DNA from: Gemmatimonadota bacterium
GTDB lineage: Bacteria; Gemmatimonadota; Gemmatimonadetes; Gemmatimonadales; Gemmatimonadaceae
Reading direction: 5' to 3'
Assembly (NCBI GenBank): GCA_016874035.1
Contig: VGVM01000007.1
Span: 1-64,000, forward strand
DNA length: 64,000 nt
Below the pieces are notes generated by a model. It was not told where the DNA came from, made no database searches, and worked only from the letters and a program-made list of their open reading frames with translations. The translations under genes were made by a program, and so were the position numbers. How positions within the stretch are numbered: position 1 is the first letter of the stretch; each line of letters opens with the position of its first letter. This document shows positions 25,301 through 55,641 of the stretch, piece after piece.

Positions 25301-25531
25301 CGGAACGGGATCAACGCGCAGTTCATCTTCCTGCTCGGCCACATCGAGGGCAACGACGTGCTCACCCAGCCGTCACGCGACCGGTTGGCTGAGCTCGAAC
25401 GGATGTGGGCCGCGATGAAGCAGGAGATCGAGAAGGTCGAGTCCGAAGTGCCCGCGTTCAACAAGCTGCTGCAGGATGCAAACGTCGAGGGCGTGATCGT
25501 ACCGAAGCCCAAGCCGAAAGTGGCGATGTAG
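22340..25531 (+). CDS. VPS10/sortilin-type BNR repeat glycosyl-hydrolase-like secreted protein
   Basis: A 1,063-residue exported protein. A short signal peptide ends SAILHAQGRP. Two seven- to ten-bladed propellers carry Asp-box repeats such as GVYKSTDAGKTW, GVYRSLDGGKTW, GIWKSTDGGDTW, GLFRSDDAGRTW, VLFRTSDRGRTW and VYVSFNGGTSW. After about residue 770 there is a Gly-rich linker and a C-terminal helical domain. The family is abundant in Gemmatimonadota and Acidobacteriota and is usually annotated as glycosyl hydrolase, though no activity is proven. Start ATG 22340 gives the signal peptide. The last codons belong to a tandem hairpin repeat. Confidence 0.88.
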   Translation: MRQITLALLGISAILHAQGRPPARPAPTAPTAVTAAPAFDSSLFAAMQWRLIGPFRGGRSVAASGVTGQPMVYYAGYTGGGVWKTDNAGNSWRNISDGFFRTSSIGAIAVAESDPNVVYVGTGEHAIRGQSSSFGDGVYKSTDAGKTWKHTGLEASRQISAVRVHPQNPEIVYVAAQGDRWKGTADRGVYRSLDGGKTWAQVLKGENPTSGPSDLSMDPTNPRILYAAFWDHQRLPWQVRSGGPGSGIWKSTDGGDTWARLGGGLPRLMGKIGVSVSPANPERVFAIVEAERGGLFRSDDAGRTWQLLGEQRDIQTRSWYYMNVIADPLNADVVYVMNAPFMKSIDGGRTFTTVNAMHGDNHGLWVNPKDSRYMINSNDGGVSVTLDGGRSWSSQDNQPTAQFYHVTVDDVYPYRLYSGQQDNSSVVIKSRSDGGSIGIRDWFDGAGCESANIGVDPRNPRYVYGGCYQGIIDELDVQTGMRRQVMPYPALTLTEPSDAMKYRFNWTAPAVVSLHNGNVLYHGGNVLFRTSDRGRTWAPISPDLTRNDKATQGWGGTPITNEGAGGENYGTIVVIAESPHDANTVYVGTDDGLVQLTRDGGRTWTNVTPAGVALGLSNELEVSPHDPATVYLAFRRDRHGEYTPYPMKSADYGKTWTRIAVGMREGEPVRVIREDPVRKDLLYAGTETGVYVSFNGGTSWQPFSQNLPITPVTDLDVRHDDLYASTEGRAFWALDDLSAIRQLADSIARKDAHLFAPKAALRIAGGGGFGGGGAAGRNPPSGANFYYSLAKAPDSATAVKLEVLAANGAVVRTYERAAGAAAAPGGGGRGGPPPVRINPRQGLNAFQWDFRGEAPTALPGNVAMFGGPTGGALASPGRYQVRLTVGTQVQTQSFELRRDPREEATVAQAATRDSAARAIVARMSEINESIVRLRDIKDQVSRFVDKTKDAATASTIAAKGKTITVGVDSLDPKLTTKAANFQDIINYRNGINAQFIFLLGHIEGNDVLTQPSRDRLAELERMWAAMKQEIEKVESEVPAFNKLLQDANVEGVIVPKPKPKVAM

Positions 25532-25577
25532 TCGCCACTGAAAGTGGCGATGTAGTCGCCACTGAAAGTGGCGATGT
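25516..25577. repeat. Tandem 24-bp repeat, each unit a perfect hairpin
   Basis: Unit GAAAGTGGCGATGTAGTCGC plus CACT occurs at 25516-25539 and 25540-25563, with a partial third copy to 25577. Each unit contains AGTGGCGA-TGTAG-TCGCCACT, an 8-bp perfect inverted repeat. The first copy contains the stop codon (25529-25531) of the sortilin-type gene. Lying between converging genes, it may work as a two-way terminator or stability element, although no U-tract is present. Confidence 0.75.
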
Positions 25578-29211: not shown

Positions 29212-31599
29212 ATGGCGACCACAATTCCTGAGATCTTCGAATCCCTCGACTACGGCCCGGCGCCGGAGTCAGACAAGCCCGCGCTCGAATGGCTCGCGCG
29301 CCACAAGGCGACGTTCGGGCACCACATCAACGGCGCATTCACAAAGCCGAAGGGCGCGACGATCAGCGTCGTGAACCCCGCGACGGGCGCCGAGCTCGCG
29401 AAGGTTGTGCAAGGTTCGCGCGCAGATGTGGACCTGGCCGTGACCGCCGCGCGTAAGGCGCTGGTCGAATGGCAGGCGCTCGGGACGCACGGACGTGCGC
29501 GGCACCTGTACGCACTGGCGCGCATGGTCCAACGGCATTCGCGACTCCTCGCTGTGCTCGAGTCCCTGGACAACGGCAAGAGCATCCGTGAGACACGCGA
29601 CCTCGACATCCCGCTCGTCGCGCGCCACTTCTATCACCACGCCGGCTGGGCGCAGCTGCTCGAGACGGAGTTCCCCGGCTACACCGGCGCGGGCGTCGTG
29701 GGGCAGATCATCCCGTGGAACTTCCCGCTGCTCATGCTGGCGTGGAAGATCGCGCCCGCGCTCGCCGCCGGTTGCACGGTCGTGCTCAAGCCCGCCGAGT
29801 TCACTCCGCTCACCGCCCTGGCCTTCGCGGAACTCGCGAACGAGGCCGGGATCCCGAAGGGCGTGATCAACATCATCACGGGCGACGGCTCCACGGGCGC
29901 GGCGCTCGTGGATCACCCCGGCGTGGACAAGCTCGCGTTCACTGGGAGCACCGACGTCGGGCGCATCATCCGCAAGGCGACGGCCGGCAGCGGCAAGAAG
30001 CTCTCGCTCGAACTCGGCGGCAAGAGTCCGTTCATCGTGTTCGACGACGCCGACCTCGACTCGGTGGTCGAAGGCGTGGTGGACGCGATCTGGTTCAACC
30101 AGGGGCAGGTGTGCTGCGCGGGCTCGCGACTCCTCGTGCACGAGGGTATCGCGGAGCGGCTGTTCGAGAAGCTGCGCGCGCGCATGGAACGCCTGCGCGT
30201 GGGTGCCCCGCTCGACAAGGCCGTGGACATGGGCGCGATCGTCGCCCCGGTCCAGCTCGAACGCATCCGTTCGCTGGTCGAGCAAGGTCGCAAGGAAGGC
30301 GCGGACATGTGGCAGCCGTCCTGGGCCGTGCCGAAGGACGGCTGCTTCTACCCGCCGACGTTGTTCACCAAGGTCGCGCCAAGCTCGACGATCGCCCAGG
30401 TCGAGATCTTCGGGCCCGTGCTCGTCTCGATGACGTTCCGCACGCCGGCCGAGGCGGTCGCGTTGGCCAACAACACCCCGTTCGGGCTCGCCGCGAGTAT
30501 CTGGAGCGAGAACATCAACCTCGCGCTCGACATCGCGCCGAAGGTCAAGGCCGGAGTGGTCTGGATCAACTGCACGAACCTCTTCGACGCGGCGGCGGGA
30601 TTTGGCGGGTACCGCGAGAGCGGCTACGGGCGCGAAGGTGGCCGCGAGGGGATGTGGGAATACCTGAAAAGACAGCAACCACGGGTAGTAGGTAGTAGGT
30701 ATTTGGGGAGGAAGGCGAAGTCATCAACGGCTGTTGCGCCCGCGTCAGGCCTCGCGGTGGACCGCACGGCCAAGCTGTACATCGGCGGCAAGCAGGTGCG
30801 ACCCGATGGCGGCTACTCGCTCCGGATACTCGGCGCGAACGGCAAGCCGCTCGGCGAGGTCGGCGAGGGCAACCGGAAGGACGTGCGGAATGCGGTCGAG
30901 GCCGCGCAGGCGGCCGCGAGCTCATGGTCGCGCACCACGGGCCACGCGCGGGCGCAGATCCTCTATTACATCGCCGAGAACCTTGCGGCGCGGCGCGCGG
31001 AGTTCGCGGCGCGGCTCACGGCCCTCACGGGCGGCGACGGTGGCGGCGAGGTGGATGCGACCGTCACGCGGCTCTTCACGTACGCATCGTGGGCCGACAA
31101 GTGGGACGGCGCGGTGCACCACACGCCGGTGCGCGGCGTCACGCTCGCGATGAACGAGCCGCTTGGCGTGATCGGCGTTGCCGCGCCGGACGCGCATCCG
31201 CTGCTCGGCTTCGTGTCGGTCGTCGCTCCGGCGATTGCGGCCGGCAACGCCGTGATCGCGGTCCCGAGCGAACGGCACCCGTTGGCCGTGACGGACTTCT
31301 ATCAGGTACTCGACACCAGCGACCTCCCAGGCGGCGTGGTCAACATCGTCACGGGCCGCAAGGACGAACTGGCGAAGGTGCTCGCCGAACACGACGACGT
31401 CGCTGCGATCTGGTATTGGGGGTCGCAGGCCGGCGTGAAGATGTGCGAGCTGGCGAGCTGCGGAAACATGAAGCAGACGTGGTGCGAGGACTCGGCGGCC
31501 CGCCCGCGCGCATGGGCGGACGCGGCCGACGGCGAGGGCCGTGAGTTCCTCAGGCACGCCACGCAGGTGAAGAACATCTGGATTCCGTACGGGGAATAG
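29212..31599 (+). CDS. Double-domain aldehyde dehydrogenase
   Basis: A 795-residue fusion of two aldehyde dehydrogenase units. The first (about 30-490) is complete: PWNFPLLMLAWK, FTGSTDVGR, the general base Glu in LELGGKSPF (about 267) and nucleophile Cys in QGQVCCAGS (about 301). The second (about 515-795) has cofactor-domain elements (GVIGVAAPDAHPLLGF, AGNAVIAVPSE) but no LELGGK equivalent and no clear catalytic loop, and it ends early. It is therefore probably structural. The gene follows deoC by 30 nt and most likely oxidises acetaldehyde to acetate. The linker between the halves (RVVGSRYLG) is encoded by a solo copy of the heptad array seen at 51.6 and 52.2 kb. Confidence 0.92.
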   Translation: MATTIPEIFESLDYGPAPESDKPALEWLARHKATFGHHINGAFTKPKGATISVVNPATGAELAKVVQGSRADVDLAVTAARKALVEWQALGTHGRARHLYALARMVQRHSRLLAVLESLDNGKSIRETRDLDIPLVARHFYHHAGWAQLLETEFPGYTGAGVVGQIIPWNFPLLMLAWKIAPALAAGCTVVLKPAEFTPLTALAFAELANEAGIPKGVINIITGDGSTGAALVDHPGVDKLAFTGSTDVGRIIRKATAGSGKKLSLELGGKSPFIVFDDADLDSVVEGVVDAIWFNQGQVCCAGSRLLVHEGIAERLFEKLRARMERLRVGAPLDKAVDMGAIVAPVQLERIRSLVEQGRKEGADMWQPSWAVPKDGCFYPPTLFTKVAPSSTIAQVEIFGPVLVSMTFRTPAEAVALANNTPFGLAASIWSENINLALDIAPKVKAGVVWINCTNLFDAAAGFGGYRESGYGREGGREGMWEYLKRQQPRVVGSRYLGRKAKSSTAVAPASGLAVDRTAKLYIGGKQVRPDGGYSLRILGANGKPLGEVGEGNRKDVRNAVEAAQAAASSWSRTTGHARAQILYYIAENLAARRAEFAARLTALTGGDGGGEVDATVTRLFTYASWADKWDGAVHHTPVRGVTLAMNEPLGVIGVAAPDAHPLLGFVSVVAPAIAAGNAVIAVPSERHPLAVTDFYQVLDTSDLPGGVVNIVTGRKDELAKVLAEHDDVAAIWYWGSQAGVKMCELASCGNMKQTWCEDSAARPRAWADAADGEGREFLRHATQVKNIWIPYGE
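30684..30704 (+). repeat. Solo heptanucleotide array inside the aldehyde dehydrogenase gene
   Basis: GGTAGTA-GGTAGTA-GGTATTT, three 7-bp units (21 bp, so frame-neutral), matching the repeat that flanks the four-helix-bundle gene at 51.6-52.2 kb. It encodes part of the linker between the two ALDH domains, in the frame that avoids TAG. Confidence 0.7.
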
Positions 31600-49912: not shown

Positions 49913-50745
49913 GTTCGGGTTCGGCGCGCGACACCAGGGACTTCCACGTCTTCCAGCGGACGCCGCTTCGGTTCCTGCAGCAGATGAGCCGCGCGACGCT
50001 CGCCTTTTTCGGCGGGATGGGCGCCCGCGTGCTGTTCCTGCGCGAACTCTGGCGCGCGCTGGGCGAACCACGCACGTACGGCCCGCTGATCATCAAGCAG
50101 ATGCGGGCGATCGGCGTGGACTCGGTGCCGCTCGTGCTCATGGTTGCGGCATTCATCGGCGCCGTCATCGCGATCCAGGTGCGCTACCAGCTCTTCCCGG
50201 GCATCCAGCTCTCGATCGTGGGGCTGTCGTCGCGCCAGATCACGGTGCTCGAAACGGGCCCGCTGCTCACCGGCCTCGTGCTGGCCGGCCGGATCGGCGC
50301 GAAGATGACCGCTGAGATCGGCACGATGCGCGTGACGGAACAGATCGACGCGCTTGAAACACTGGCCTACGACCCGGTCGCGTACCTGGTCGTCCCCCGG
50401 CTGATCGCGTCGATCGTCATGCTCCCGCTCCTCACCCTGATGGCGGACGTGATCGGCGTGATGGCGGGCGCGATGGCCGGTGTCTTCGTGACGGACGTAC
50501 AACTCCCGATGTTCGTCGAGGGTGTGCGGCTCGGCTACGACCACTTCCAGGTGTTCTATTCGCTGATCAAGGCGACCCTGTTCGGCGGCGCGATCGCCTA
50601 CCTCTGCACGTACGAGGGCTATGTGACCGAGGCCGGCGCCGAAGGCGTCGGCAAGTCCACGGCGAAGGCCGTCGTGATTTCCTCGATCTGGATCCTCATC
50701 CTCGACGCGACCACCGCACTCCTCCTCGCACCATATTTGCAATAA
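49909..50745 (+). CDS. mlaE: MlaE/YrbE family ABC transporter permease
   Basis: A 278-residue inner-membrane permease for phospholipid transport across the envelope. The family core is present: LVLMVAAFIGAVIAIQVRYQ, ETGPLLTGLVLAGRIGAKMT, AEIGTMRVTEQIDALETLAY, DPVAYLVVPRLIASIVMLPL and FGGAIAYLCTYEGY. The N-terminal extension before the first helix is typical of YrbE. It overlaps lptG and mlaD. No MlaF-type ATPase gene is adjacent. Confidence 0.93.
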   Translation: MSSGSARDTRDFHVFQRTPLRFLQQMSRATLAFFGGMGARVLFLRELWRALGEPRTYGPLIIKQMRAIGVDSVPLVLMVAAFIGAVIAIQVRYQLFPGIQLSIVGLSSRQITVLETGPLLTGLVLAGRIGAKMTAEIGTMRVTEQIDALETLAYDPVAYLVVPRLIASIVMLPLLTLMADVIGVMAGAMAGVFVTDVQLPMFVEGVRLGYDHFQVFYSLIKATLFGGAIAYLCTYEGYVTEAGAEGVGKSTAKAVVISSIWILILDATTALLLAPYLQ

Positions 50746-51626
50746 TGAAGCGACGTGACGAAGTCCTTGTCGGCCTGACCGCCACCGTGGCGCTGGTGAT
50801 GGGCCTGATCGGTGCGCTCTGGCTTGCGCGCGGCGGCATCTCTCCCGGCTACCCGTTGTACATCAAGTTCGACTGGGGCGCGGGACTCAAGCAGGGACAG
50901 CCCGTGCTGCTCGCGGGCGTGAACGTCGGGTTTGTCGGGGACGTCGAGCTGCAGCAGGACGGCAACCTGATCGTGACGATCAAGGTCAGGAACCAGTTCC
51001 AGGTGCCGAAGGGGACGACAGCGACCATCGAGCCGAACGGTTTCTTCGGCGACATGCTGATCGCGCTGCAATCTGAGAAGCCGAACAGTGAGCGGTTCGC
51101 GGTTGGCGACACCATCCCCCGCGGTGCGGCGTCCCCGCCGCTCGGGCAGATCCTGGGGCGCGTGGATTCGCTGACGAAGAACCTCACCGCGCTGACCGGG
51201 GCGCTGCAGAAGGACTTGGTCAACGAGGACGGGCTCGGCGAGATCCGCAGCACCATCCGCCAGGCGCGTACCCTGTTCGCCGAACTGCAGAAGGTCGCCG
51301 CGGAGCAGAACGCCGAGCTGACGAAGACGCAGGCGTCACTGCGCCGCGTGGCGAACGCCGTGGACTCCGCCCAGGTGGACTCGACGCTGCGCGTGCTGAC
51401 GAGTGCGGCGAAGAGCGTGACCACACTCGCGGCGGACATCGGCGAAACGACCGGCCGCCTGGACTCGCTGATCAACAAGGTGAACAACGGGCAGGGCACG
51501 GCCGGTCGCCTCCTGAACGACGACGGCCTCTACCGCGACGTACGCGGGACGCTGCAGCGGCTCGACTCGCTCATGGCGGACTTCATGGCGCACCCGAAGA
51601 AGTACGTGAAGTTGAGTATCTTCTAA
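50745..51626 (+). CDS. mlaD: MlaD/MCE domain lipid-transport protein
   Basis: A 293-residue protein with one N-terminal membrane helix (VGLTATVALVMGLIGALWLA). An MCE domain follows (about 38-115: YIKFDWGAGLKQGQPVLLAG, VNVGFVGDV, FFGDMLIAL). A long helical/coiled-coil tail (150-290) contains NKVNNGQGTAGRLLNDDGLY, a motif common in long MCE proteins. It forms hexameric rings that bind phospholipid beneath MlaE. TAATG overlap with mlaE. Its stop codon is followed 6 bp later by the heptad array of the four-helix-bundle element. Confidence 0.92.
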   Translation: MKRRDEVLVGLTATVALVMGLIGALWLARGGISPGYPLYIKFDWGAGLKQGQPVLLAGVNVGFVGDVELQQDGNLIVTIKVRNQFQVPKGTTATIEPNGFFGDMLIALQSEKPNSERFAVGDTIPRGAASPPLGQILGRVDSLTKNLTALTGALQKDLVNEDGLGEIRSTIRQARTLFAELQKVAAEQNAELTKTQASLRRVANAVDSAQVDSTLRVLTSAAKSVTTLAADIGETTGRLDSLINKVNNGQGTAGRLLNDDGLYRDVRGTLQRLDSLMADFMAHPKKYVKLSIF

Positions 51627-51632
51627 GGGTGA

Positions 51633-51688
51633 GATAGTGGGTGGTGGATAGGAGATAGGAGATAGTAGATAGTAGGTAATAGGTGTTC
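51633..51688 (+). repeat. Heptanucleotide array A (GATAGTA type)
   Basis: Eight successive 7-mers: GATAGTG, GGTGGTG, GATAGGA, GATAGGA, GATAGTA, GATAGTA, GGTAATA, GGTGTTC, decaying towards both ends. It starts 6 bp after the mlaD stop. It is the inverse of array B at 52194-52228. Confidence 0.85.
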
Positions 51689-51703
51689 GGCGGCACGTGC
51701 CAT

Positions 51704-52075
51704 TCAGGCGTGAGCGCGCGTGTACGCGACAGAGAGTTTCGCGCGTAGCGCAAACAGCATCCGCCTGACGTGGGAGATTTCGTCCAGCAGCGCGTCCGCC
51801 GCGTCCTCCGGGATCACGCGGGTGTCGCGCGCGGCGAGCGTGAAGTACTCCAGCTCCGCTGCCGATGCCGCGGCGATTCCCACATAGCGCTTGAAAGATG
51901 GCCGAGACGAGCTGCAGGCGCCCTCAACGAGGTTGGCGCACACCGACATCGCCGATCGGCGCAGCTCGCGGCCGATAAGCCGCGCGCTCACGACGCCGTC
52001 GAGTCGGCGGTCGGCAAGCAACTGCACGGTGAGCACATGGGCGCGACGCCACACGTCGAGGTCTTGATAGCGCAC
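51704..52075 (-). CDS. Four-helix bundle protein, 23S rRNA intervening-sequence (S23/IVP) family
   Basis: A 123-residue all-helical protein. The family pattern is clear: YQDLDVWRRAHVLTVQL, then LIGRELRRSAMSVCANLVEG, SFKRYVGIAAASAAELEYFT and LLDEISHVRRMLFALRAKL. Members form pentameric bundles related to the Avd subunit of diversity-generating retroelements and are encoded within 23S rRNA IVSs; their biochemical role is unsettled. The start is GTG 52075. It is on the opposite strand to mlaD. Both sides carry heptad arrays in inverse orientation, which suggests that gene and arrays belong together. No reverse transcriptase or template repeat is nearby. Confidence 0.88.
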   Translation of the reverse strand: MRYQDLDVWRRAHVLTVQLLADRRLDGVVSARLIGRELRRSAMSVCANLVEGACSSSRPSFKRYVGIAAASAAELEYFTLAARDTRVIPEDAADALLDEISHVRRMLFALRAKLSVAYTRAHA

Positions 52076-52147
52076 GGCGCAACTTCGTCGCGCGGCGGCG
52101 TACGCGCGATGGCCGCGTCACGCGAGACTCATCGTTTTGTCGCGGCA

Positions 52148-52188
52148 AGAAAAAGGAAGTGGGCCCAGAGCGTGCGCCCCAGGCCCAC
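52148..52188 (-). terminator. Rho-independent terminator downstream of the TonB receptor gene
   Basis: On the minus strand GTGGGCC (from 52188) pairs with GGCCCAC (to 52159). Inner GGGCG/CGCTC pairing extends the stem, and TTCCTTTTTCTT follows. It lies 37 bp beyond the receptor stop codon, with heptad array B between them. Confidence 0.8.
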
Positions 52189-52193
52189 CGTCC

Positions 52194-52228
52194 CCACTAC
52201 CTACTATCTACTACCTACTATCTACTAC
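52194..52228 (-). repeat. Heptanucleotide array B, overlapping the TonB receptor stop codon
   Basis: Plus-strand 7-mers CCACTAC, CTACTAT, CTACTAC, CTACTAT, CTACTAC; the minus strand reads GTAGTAGATAGTAGGTAGTA. The receptor's TAG stop (52225-52227) is part of the last unit. Inverse of array A. Confidence 0.88.
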
Positions 52229-55200
52229 CAGCTGTACCTAAACCCGGCCTGGAACTGGTAGTTGTCGCCCGTGCCGTTGCCCTTGATGTAGGTGCGCTGG
52301 TTCACGTTGTGCGTGAAAATCGGCACCGCGACCTTCGGGTCAATGCTCGACATGCCGACGTGAGTGAGCACCGGCACGTTGCTGTTCGACGTACCGTCGG
52401 TCTGCTTGCTCTTGCCCCACTCGTCGTTGATCAGGTTCATCACGTTGTAGACGTTGAAGATGAACGTCGCGCGCTGGCCACCGAGGAACTCCGGGAGGGC
52501 CTGGCGGATCGTGAGGTCCATCTGCTCCTGCCACGGGGTCCGGCACGAGTTGCGCTTCATGATCGTTCCGCGCGCCTTGCGGAGGCACTCGCTGGACTTG
52601 ATGAAGTCCTCGAAGGCCTGCGCCTGCGTCGCGGCCGTGATCGTGCCCGAGTTGTTGAAGCGGATCTCGTTCGGGTCGAGCGCGCTTTTCGGCACGTAGA
52701 GCAGGTCATTGCCCTGCGAGCCGTCGGCGTTCAGGTCGCCCGCGCCACCGGCACCGCCGTACACGTAGTCGTGCGGAGCGCCGGAGTTGCCACGATAGTA
52801 CAGGGTCACGTCGGTCGAGAGGCGATTCTTCCACCACCAGAACGTGTAGGTGCCCTGCGCCACGAAGTTGTGCGGCTGGTCAAACAATGACACTGCCCGG
52901 CTCGCGACGGTCTGGTTGGTCGAGAGCGTGCGCCCGAAGCGCCAGTTCGACGCCGCCGTGGACGACCCGAACGACTGAACGTCGTACGAGTGGCCGTAGG
53001 TGTACGCCACGAGCCCCTGCCAGTTGTTGCTGTACCGCTTCTGCAACTGGAAGGTCACGTTGTAGAAGTAGTCGTTGTTCTGGTTCTGCATGTCGTAGCC
53101 GGCGGCGAATCGGCTGGTACCGCCGTTCGCGATGATCCTGGACGGGATCGACGCCCGGGCCGCGCCCGTCGTCAGGATCGTGTCGCCGTAGAGCACGCGA
53201 CCACGCGGGTCCACGCCGCGCGGCGCGTTCAGGTTCAGGTTCACCATGAACAGCTGGTTGAGCGTGCGGCCGTAGAGGCCTTCGACCGTGGCAACCAGGT
53301 TTTCGCCGATACGGCGGTCGAACGCGAGCGAGAAGCGGAGCGGCTGCGGATACTTGAGGTCCGGCGCCATGAAGTTCACTTCGCCGATCGGCCGGTTCAC
53401 GACGCCGGTGCGGCAACCATTGATCCCGCTCGGGTCAACCGCGAAGCTCGGCGCCGGCGCCGTGCTGCCGCTCGTGTTGCAGTTAAGGAACGTGATGAGG
53501 TTGCCGGAGTTGATGGTCGAGTTCTCGAGCCACACGGCCGGCGGCGTACCAACGAAGAGGCCCACACCGCCGCGGAGCTGATTCACCGCGTTGCCGGTGA
53601 TGTCCCAGTTGAACCCGAGCCGCGGCGACCACTGCACCGAGGTCTTCGGGATCTTGTCCGTCCGACGCCCGTAGGCGCTGTCCACGGTTGCGTTGTACGG
53701 AATGTCCGTGAGGAACATCGCGATGTCGGCGCGGACACCACTGGTCAGCGTGAGGCGCGGCGTCGCGGCCCACTGGTCCTGCACGTACCACGCGGAGTTC
53801 GCGAAGTTGAAGTAGGCGTTGCCCTGGTCCTTCAGGATGATGCTCTTGCGGAACGAGTTTGCGTTGCCTGCGGCGAGCGAGTCCAGGTTGCGGAAGCTCC
53901 ACACGCCGTACGACGACTGCGTGAACAGGTTCCGGATGTAGTTGTAGTCGTTGCGCGTGCCGATGGTCAGCGTGTGCGCACCAATCGCCTTCGACCAGTT
54001 GTTGGTGAGTTCATACGTGTCGAAGTCACCTTCATTGCCCTGCGAGAACTGGTCGGCGCCGGCGATGATCGTCGCGTTGCCGCCACCGACGCGCGGGACC
54101 TGGAACACGGTGATCTGCGGGAAGACCGCGTTGGCCGTGCGGCGGTCGCGGACACGCGTGAAGCCCGCGAAGAACTCGTTCGACGAACCGTCGGCGAAGT
54201 TCGAGTAGATCTGCAGCACCGGTGAAAGCTTCTTGCTCGTCAGCGTGTGTTCGTTCGACGTGTACACCATGGTGCTCGACGAACGGCTGTTCTGCGCGCG
54301 CATTTCCTGCCGCGTGTCACCGTAGTTCACGCGAAACACGGCCCGGTGATTGTTGTTGATGCGGTAGTCGAACCGCACGAACGGGTTGTGCTGCGGCCGC
54401 GGCCCGTTCACGACGTTCGTCGTGCCGTACGCTGTCAGGCCGTAGGGCGCGCCCGCGACGATGGACTCGAAACGACGGAAATCCGTGGTCGCGATCTGGA
54501 GCGGCGAGGTCGCATTGGACGGCTGGCCCTCGTACGGGCCGAACAGCGGCACGTTCTCGGACTTGATTTCGTCCGCGACGAAGAAGTGGAGCTTGTCCTT
54601 GATGATCGGGCCGCCGAACGAGAACGCGAGCTGGCCGCGGTCAAACTTCGTGGAGCGGAGCACCGGCGTGTTCCGCCCGAACTGCTCGTTGCGGAAATCG
54701 TAGAACACGGAGCCCGTGAACTTGTTCGTACCCGACTTCGTCACGGCGTTGAGCAGGAGGCCACCGAAGTTGCCCTGACGCACGTCGAACGGCGCGAGCA
54801 GCACCTGGAACTCCTTCACCGCTTCCAGTGAAACCGACTTCGCGCTGATCTGGCCGCCGGGCTGGCCGGTGGCACCGAGGCCGAACACGTCGCGCTCGGT
54901 CGCGCCGTCGATCTGCACGTTGTTCATGCGGTTCGACATGCCGCCGGCCGAGTAGCCGGCGCCGGCCGTGGAGACCTGCGGAACGAGCTTGATGAAGTCG
55001 GTCAACTGGCGGTTCGGCGTAGGGAGGCGCTGGATCACGGTGTCCGTGATCGCGGCCTTCGTGCCGGTATTCGACGCCGAGAAGCCGTCGTTGCTCGCCG
55101 TGACCGTCACCGCGGAAATCGTGGCGGCCTGCTCGGTGAGCTTGAAGTCAATGCGGGTCGCCACCGAGAGCTGGACCACGACACCCTCGCGCGTCACCGG

Positions 55201-55482
55201 CGAGAAGCCGATTCGCCGCGCGATAACCGTGTATCCGGAGCCAACCTCGAGCCCTTGGATGTAGTAGCGCCCGTTTTCGCGCGTCGTCCCGACGGCGGTC
55301 GCGCCCGTGGCGCGATTCGTGATCTGGATCTGGGCGGTGGCGAGCGGGTTGTTGCTGGGGTCAGAGACCGTGCCGGTGACGGCTCCGGTAGTGACGCTCT
55401 GCGCGTGAAGCGACGGTGCGGCTGCGGCCGCAGCTACGCAGAGGATCGCGGCAAGCGCCAGCCGCGAACGAATCATGGCCAT
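52225..55482 (-). CDS. TonB-dependent receptor with N-terminal carboxypeptidase-regulatory domain
   Basis: A 1,085-residue outer-membrane receptor. The signal peptide ends PSLHAQSVTTG. A CarboxypepD_reg-like domain (about 28-110) reads GAVTGTVSDPSNNPLATAQI, then YYIQGLEVGSGYTVIARRIG. The plug contains NRMNNVQIDGATERDVFGLG and NAVTKSGTNKFTGSVFYDFR, the Oar-like pattern. A long barrel ends in FQAGFRYSW, with the terminal aromatic residue used in barrel assembly. GAGGG six bases before ATG 55482 supports that start. Oar-like receptors import or export large substrates; the ligand is unknown. Its stop codon lies within heptad array B. Confidence 0.92.
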   Translation of the reverse strand: MAMIRSRLALAAILCVAAAAAAPSLHAQSVTTGAVTGTVSDPSNNPLATAQIQITNRATGATAVGTTRENGRYYIQGLEVGSGYTVIARRIGFSPVTREGVVVQLSVATRIDFKLTEQAATISAVTVTASNDGFSASNTGTKAAITDTVIQRLPTPNRQLTDFIKLVPQVSTAGAGYSAGGMSNRMNNVQIDGATERDVFGLGATGQPGGQISAKSVSLEAVKEFQVLLAPFDVRQGNFGGLLLNAVTKSGTNKFTGSVFYDFRNEQFGRNTPVLRSTKFDRGQLAFSFGGPIIKDKLHFFVADEIKSENVPLFGPYEGQPSNATSPLQIATTDFRRFESIVAGAPYGLTAYGTTNVVNGPRPQHNPFVRFDYRINNNHRAVFRVNYGDTRQEMRAQNSRSSSTMVYTSNEHTLTSKKLSPVLQIYSNFADGSSNEFFAGFTRVRDRRTANAVFPQITVFQVPRVGGGNATIIAGADQFSQGNEGDFDTYELTNNWSKAIGAHTLTIGTRNDYNYIRNLFTQSSYGVWSFRNLDSLAAGNANSFRKSIILKDQGNAYFNFANSAWYVQDQWAATPRLTLTSGVRADIAMFLTDIPYNATVDSAYGRRTDKIPKTSVQWSPRLGFNWDITGNAVNQLRGGVGLFVGTPPAVWLENSTINSGNLITFLNCNTSGSTAPAPSFAVDPSGINGCRTGVVNRPIGEVNFMAPDLKYPQPLRFSLAFDRRIGENLVATVEGLYGRTLNQLFMVNLNLNAPRGVDPRGRVLYGDTILTTGAARASIPSRIIANGGTSRFAAGYDMQNQNNDYFYNVTFQLQKRYSNNWQGLVAYTYGHSYDVQSFGSSTAASNWRFGRTLSTNQTVASRAVSLFDQPHNFVAQGTYTFWWWKNRLSTDVTLYYRGNSGAPHDYVYGGAGGAGDLNADGSQGNDLLYVPKSALDPNEIRFNNSGTITAATQAQAFEDFIKSSECLRKARGTIMKRNSCRTPWQEQMDLTIRQALPEFLGGQRATFIFNVYNVMNLINDEWGKSKQTDGTSNSNVPVLTHVGMSSIDPKVAVPIFTHNVNQRTYIKGNGTGDNYQFQAGFRYSW

Positions 55483-55641
55483 GATGGGGCCCTCGTCAGG
55501 GTATGGTTGAACCGATGCCTGCAGCGGACCAGCCAGCCCTGCCGCAGTGCCAGAAAAGTAGGCGCCACCCGGAGCGCGCACAACGCGGGCCGCCGCCGGC
55601 GCTCGACCACCGCCCGGCGCCGGGCGATGGCACCCCTTGCG

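Follow-up and report, generated by a model that had tools for sequence, protein, structure and literature searches.

The 64,000-nucleotide stretch of Gemmatimonadota DNA analysed here, referred to as the window, contains a pair of convergent genes: mlaD of the MCE family on the + strand (50745-51626; PF02470, E=9.5e-15) and, on the - strand, a CarboxypepD-reg/OMP beta-barrel gene resembling TonB receptors (52225-55581; PF25183, E=1.3e-51, and PF13620). Between them lies an S23/IVP four-helix-bundle gene of 123 aa with a GTG start (51704-52075, - strand). The family assignment proposed in the initial annotation holds in profile searches, in which the product scores 68.2 bits against PF05635 (23S_rRNA_IVP; E=8.7e-19, curated cut-off 33.8) and 64.1 bits against TIGR02436 (E=1.2e-17, curated cut-off 24). 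The window protein also has a relative in the PDB, 2gsc (XCC0516; E=4e-6).

The S23 gene is framed by two opposed tandem arrays of heptads of the GATAGTA/GGTAGTA type. Arm 1 (51633-51688, + strand) begins 7 nt past the mlaD stop codon, which ends at 51626, and has the same orientation as that gene. Its units at 51633-51681 are GATAGTG, GGTGGTG, GATAGGA, GATAGGA, GATAGTA, GATAGTA and GGTAATA, followed by a degenerate GGTGTTC, so that the array described initially as eight units is real with seven good units and a poor eighth. Arm 2 (52195-52229, - strand) contains the five expected units, GGTAGTA, GATAGTA, GGTAGTA, GATAGTA and GGTAGTG, is complementary to arm 1, and stands at the 3′ end of the receptor-like gene, whose stop codon is the first TAG of the array, inside its first unit. 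The suggestion that the arms could pair in RNA is borne out by folding of the S23 sense strand, for which an almost perfect duplex of -45.4 kcal/mol is predicted compared with -17.1 +/- 4.3 kcal/mol for shuffled arms. The distances from arm to ORF, 122 nt upstream and 25 nt downstream, are within the range of other S23 elements. A GC-rich hairpin followed by a T-run, resembling an intrinsic terminator when read from the sequence and folded (approximately 52150-52190, - strand), occurs between arm 2 and the S23 gene and is perhaps the receptor-like gene's own terminator. The window thus has terminal inverted repeats that pair and an S23 ORF in the loop, as in the intervening sequences (IVSs) of 23S rRNA, where the ORF is optional; its position is between two protein genes and not in 23S rRNA, and no Rfam family was matched in the window. 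Separately, a perfect 24-bp tandem repeat of 2.6 copies, itself hairpin-forming, occurs between convergent genes at 25516-25577.

In sister loci with a visible convergent partner of mlaD, that partner is a homologous receptor gene (26-41% identity). The measured gap from mlaD to the partner is 73-137 bp and contains no S23 gene, with the exception of one relative (G009, locus L209) that has an S23 gene of 44% identity in the mlaD interval, accompanied by arrays of a different unit. The short intervals in sister loci indicate that the interval was invaded in the window. A comparison of mlaD intervals for an empty site yields short S23-free intervals and no exact empty site, and the one S23 gene found at the same place in a relative is accompanied by arrays.

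Inverted tandem arrays at S23 genes

S23 genes are in general framed by inverted tandem arrays. Framing was scored by comparing the two 350-bp flanks of a gene for their best inverted repeat. With a threshold of 18, 40 of the 57 S23 genes in the genus score at least 18 compared with 0 of 663 control genes, and 18/29 do so in other genera of the order. A scan of public genomes covering 80 S23 loci from about ten phyla (Gemmatimonadota, Chloroflexota, Acidobacteriota, Nitrospirota, Bacteroidota, Planctomycetota, Proteobacteria, Cyanobacteria and candidate phyla) gave inverted-repeat scores of at least 18 at 17 loci, compared with 0 of 139 displaced controls. Scored by periodicity, arrays are present within 200 bp on at least one side of the gene at 67 of the 80 loci and on both sides at 30, and the period is exactly 7 in 89 of 97 scoring flanks; 8.8% of control pieces also score by periodicity, a rate that includes real solo arrays since these pieces were drawn from the same loci. 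Arrays accompany 24 of 30 S23 genes in Gammaproteobacteria, 14 of them on both sides, and nearly all of nine S23 copies on cyanobacterial plasmids. At one gammaproteobacterial locus (L423) a degraded S23 gene adjoins GGGAATC-type units like the Xanthomonas repeats described in PMC4692102. About a third of S23 genes, the other one of the source genome among them, have no strong arms. No S23 match was obtained in a phage collection.

Arms with periods of 6, 8, 10 and 11 are also found. Unit length clusters weakly on the S23 tree, with 8-bp units scattered, and a fixed coevolution of protein and unit length was set aside on these grounds; the loose tie between unit length and S23 phylogeny speaks against a protein that rigidly recognises a 7-nt unit. 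A divergent S23 subfamily with partial matches to PF05635 was encountered at eight loci; its long arms are rich in GTGGGAG/GAGTGG, with a period of 6 or 11 at several of them.

Solo arrays and insertion behind stop codons

Two arrays flank the S23 gene in the window, as first noted; however, they are not private to it. Pattern searches and sampled stretches of the 3.08-Mb source genome gave 52 occurrences of TAGTAGRTAGTAG at about 22 sites and none of the reversed control pattern, and TAGTAGRTAGTAG is absent from all 60 relatives searched, 17 of them of the same genus. Most arrays of the source genome follow a stop codon directly and have the orientation of the gene that it ends: 19 of 27 array intervals, a count in which one site at contig ends enters twice, begin between -10 and +25 nt from a same-strand stop codon. 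Where two genes converge in this genome, a pair of opposed arrays is often present and folds into a long hairpin. In period 7, intergenic location, sense orientation near stop codons and inverted pairing, the arrays agree with published orphan heptads of the GGGAATC type. Because most arrays are gene-less, spread over the genome and located at gene 3′ ends, the presence of an array does not by itself define an element. A solo array of the TAGTAGRTAGTAG family within the window (30684-30704, + strand) forms an in-frame linker between the halves of a 795-aa double aldehyde-dehydrogenase-like ORF, which is perhaps a fusion produced by insertion at a stop codon. Elsewhere in the genome a solo array (locus L076, 3569-3687) starts 11 nt after a tRNA-Ala gene, and so the position rule is not bound to translation stops alone. 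The idea that the arrays are back-up stop codons, providing TAG in three frames, was rejected, given this array behind a tRNA and the occurrence in relatives of units without stops (GACGGCA, GAGAAGG).

Gene-less arrays usually have the same unit as the S23 arms of their own genome. Heptads of a different set, GATGATG, GATGACA, GAGAAGG and GAGACTA, occur in a relative from another family (G057), often in inverted pairs. In 400 kb of this genome, 30 of the 31 tandem arrays with a period between 4 and 12 are heptad arrays. Of 34 arrays in G057, 20 follow a stop codon directly in sense and none in antisense (9% under the null, p=7e-13). Its two S23 genes are framed by GATGACA and GAGAAGG, which are its main solo families; the GAGACTA family, seen at three loci, has no partner among these two genes. 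Allowing at most one mismatch, solo arrays match the S23 arms of their own genome in 22 of 32 cases in G057 and in 5 of 7 in the source genome. The 3′ ends of mlaD in two further relatives (G001 and G011) have the heptads GACCGAA and GACGGCA, which also frame S23 genes of those genomes. At greater distance, solo arrays of the TCAGCNN type number in the hundreds in Stenomitos and Hydrocoleum and exceed 100 in one Nitrospira genome, and the S23 genes of these genomes have TCAGCNN-type arms. No heptad arrays were present in 160 kb from two S23-free genomes, nor in 100 kb of G014, a genome with 11 S23 genes. The scatter of arrays anticipated as a counter-indication in the initial annotation is thus real, and it coexists with strong enrichment at S23 genes.

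S23 elements insert as units in relatives. A conjugative plasmid of Trichormus variabilis (L434) and its 97% identical counterpart in Nostoc carneum (L443) provide an exact junction, at which the empty sequence AAAAAGTAATTAAC is replaced by AAAAAGTAAT, the element and GTAATTAAC. The 5-bp target duplication, GTAAT, includes the upstream stop codon, and a decayed copy of the S23 element occupies the same site in another Nostoc (C052, L446). In Nostoc ATCC 53789, two paralogous operons show GGTTCTAGGTTATG converted to GGTTCTA, the element and TTCTAGTTATG; here the 5-bp duplication, TTCTA, overlaps the TAG stop, and the first A of the element restores the stop codon. These two clean duplications both belong to cyanobacterial plasmid elements, and six further plasmid pairs gave no exact junctions. 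Three pairs of Gemmatimonadaceae loci have about 575 bp in common, comprising S23 and arms, between non-homologous flanks. Between related copies the dN/dS of S23 is 0.06-0.24, which indicates that the protein is kept by purifying selection, and S23 is the sole gene observed inside the arms in the phyla sampled. The initial proposal of an IVS-like element outside rRNA is upheld by the paired arms around the S23 ORF, their generality among S23 genes and insertion as a unit, and of the mobile or RNA-level system suggested there, movement at the DNA level is supported by the target-site duplications in relatives. At four loci on cyanobacterial plasmids S23 elements lie inside cas, nrd, cmr and conjugation/transfer operons. 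The cas6-cas4 interval has an S23 element in Anabaena sp. 90, and in Dolichospermum (locus L442, 1315-1560) a different inverted-repeat element, of the GTAGGTTGGGTT type.

A proposed mobile S23 element and alternative accounts

On this evidence the window region is probably one copy of a very widespread mobile element in which an S23/IVP gene is enclosed by inverted tandem-repeat arms. Its arms are short tandem repeats, mostly of 7 bp, and as we envisage it the element inserts in intergenic DNA at or just behind stop codons with a 5-bp target duplication. Gene-less arms would be shorter relatives or remnants having the unit of the resident S23 element. We know of no catalytic site in S23. The S23 relatives of solved structure, 2gsc and 2rld, have five chains each and are pentamers, and a toroid shape has been described (PMC4990558). 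Such a pentameric ring may bind the arms in a folded state, either a DNA cruciform or a hairpin in RNA, and carry them to the strand-transfer machinery. This machinery could be a host enzyme or an activity of S23 itself that is as yet unrecognised. A position behind the stop codon, in many cases ahead of the host terminator, would leave neighbouring genes intact. Recognition of the heptads by S23 and a driving role of the protein in movement are both inferred. Spread by a reverse transcriptase or a RAYT-type enzyme was considered and rejected, since within the genus a Y1 transposase was found in 0 of 18 genomes and reverse transcriptase is absent from 17 of 18, including the source genome, in a survey that covered these two families.

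It is conceivable, if somewhat unlikely, that S23 is a passenger of a MITE-like element, whose movement depends on recognition of its arms by a host transposase, and that the protein serves another role such as RNA protection. An S23 protein with no known catalytic centre, the gene-less state of most arrays and a 5-bp duplication, the signature of ordinary transposases, would all fit such an arrangement. However, within a genome the arm unit tracks the S23 gene present there, and it differs among species; S23 is also the only gene seen inside the arms in the sampled phyla and is under purifying selection. A single transposase common to arm sequences so variable would also be odd, and the survey of the genus for Y1 and reverse transcriptase found none of the former and almost none of the latter.

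For the window itself, each arm could be a solo array in its own right, one for either of the convergent genes, with the S23 gene having arrived alone. Both arms do occupy the usual place of solo arrays, behind a stop codon, other convergent pairs in the source genome have opposed arrays with no S23 gene, and the terminator-like hairpin separates arm 2 from the S23 gene. Set against this are the arm-to-ORF distances, which fit those of other S23 elements, and the 73-137 bp between mlaD and the OMP gene in sister species, S23-free with one exception. Independent arrival is rather unlikely, and the window copy would have arisen from a single insertion; given the canonical position of both arms and the distance of the available relatives, the window alone cannot prove one such event.

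Quite unlikely, in our judgement, is the proposal that the arrays are primarily 3′-end RNA elements, with the S23 ring binding heptads in mRNA tails in a TRAP-like manner to control termination or stability, and mobility being secondary. It would account for the sense-strand position right behind stop codons and behind a tRNA gene and for the strong RNA duplex of the arms, and most Xanthomonas repeats are transcribed according to Rehm et al. (PMC4692102). However, the arrays are missing at the same genes in relatives, which speaks against conserved regulation, the unit varies freely, and there are exact insertions with DNA target duplications. Finally, slippage-born microsatellites lying near S23 genes by chance are a highly improbable explanation: heptads occur commonly in some genomes, and an origin by slippage has been suggested (PMC4692102), but the 40/57 framed genes against 0/663 controls, the inversion of the arms, unit matching within genomes and exact empty sites contradict this account in general, while it could still hold for single solo arrays, some of which need slippage alone.

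Extending the mobile-element reading beyond the window, we tentatively propose a phylum-spanning class of elements whose sole product, the S23 pentamer, recognises heptad arms, directs insertion at stop codons and generates orphan heptads, with IVSs as the minority located in 23S genes. It is likely that orphan heptads, GGGAATC and TAACTGA among them, derive from the arms of S23 elements, and there is a substantial chance that S23 elements are a class of their own. This would link the long-standing question of what S23/IVP proteins do with that of where scattered bacterial heptad repeats come from, making both testable, and would give a simple account of S23 genes inside unrelated operons (cas, cmr, nrd, tra). 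Insertion in cas operons would explain why 23S_rRNA_IVP genes were reported from cas loci, and listed as CRISPR-associated, in a study of metagenomes (PMC3936711). If S23 drives movement, these elements would insert by a system that lacks any recognised transposase or reverse transcriptase.

Relation to known systems

Three things were each known before, namely IVS elements, S23 genes located outside rRNA, and orphan heptads (PMC4990558, PMC3936711, PMC4692102 and PMC4679880). The connection of S23 genes with heptad arrays appears to be new: no literature linking the two outside rRNA was found in a search that excluded preprints and most subscription journals. The nearest relatives are the 23S rRNA IVSs with S23/IVP ORFs of Leptospira and Coxiella, for which earlier authors suggested an origin by transposition or mobility (PMC4990558). 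They share with the present elements a sporadic distribution and an S23 ORF enclosed by terminal inverted repeats with pairing in RNA, whereas the elements described here are intergenic, behind the stops of protein genes or behind tRNA, and have arms made of tandem heptad arrays with many gene-less copies per genome. Orphan heptads, reported as GGGAATC/GGGGAYT in Xanthomonas and Nostoc (PMC4692102) and as TAACTGA in Beggiatoaceae and others (PMC4679880), are likewise intergenic 7-bp units, and the GGGAATC repeats also lie on the sense strand near stop codons and form inverted convergent pairs; the available parts of these two papers draw no link to S23.

Other comparisons concern the arrangement of gene and repeat. 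In REP/BIME systems with their RAYT (Y1) genes, inverted copies of a repeat likewise stand on either side of a gene, and the repeat is also found alone at many intergenic sites; here, however, the gene is S23, Y1 is absent from the genus, and the repeats are tandem heptads and not single palindromes. The accessory protein Avd of diversity-generating retroelements belongs to a related pentameric four-helix-bundle family (PMC10053308), whereas the reverse transcriptase on which those systems depend is missing from nearly all genomes of the genus. MITEs resemble S23 elements in being short, with inverted ends, a target duplication and no transposase; they differ in that the S23 element codes for a conserved protein under purifying selection and has arms that are variable tandem arrays.
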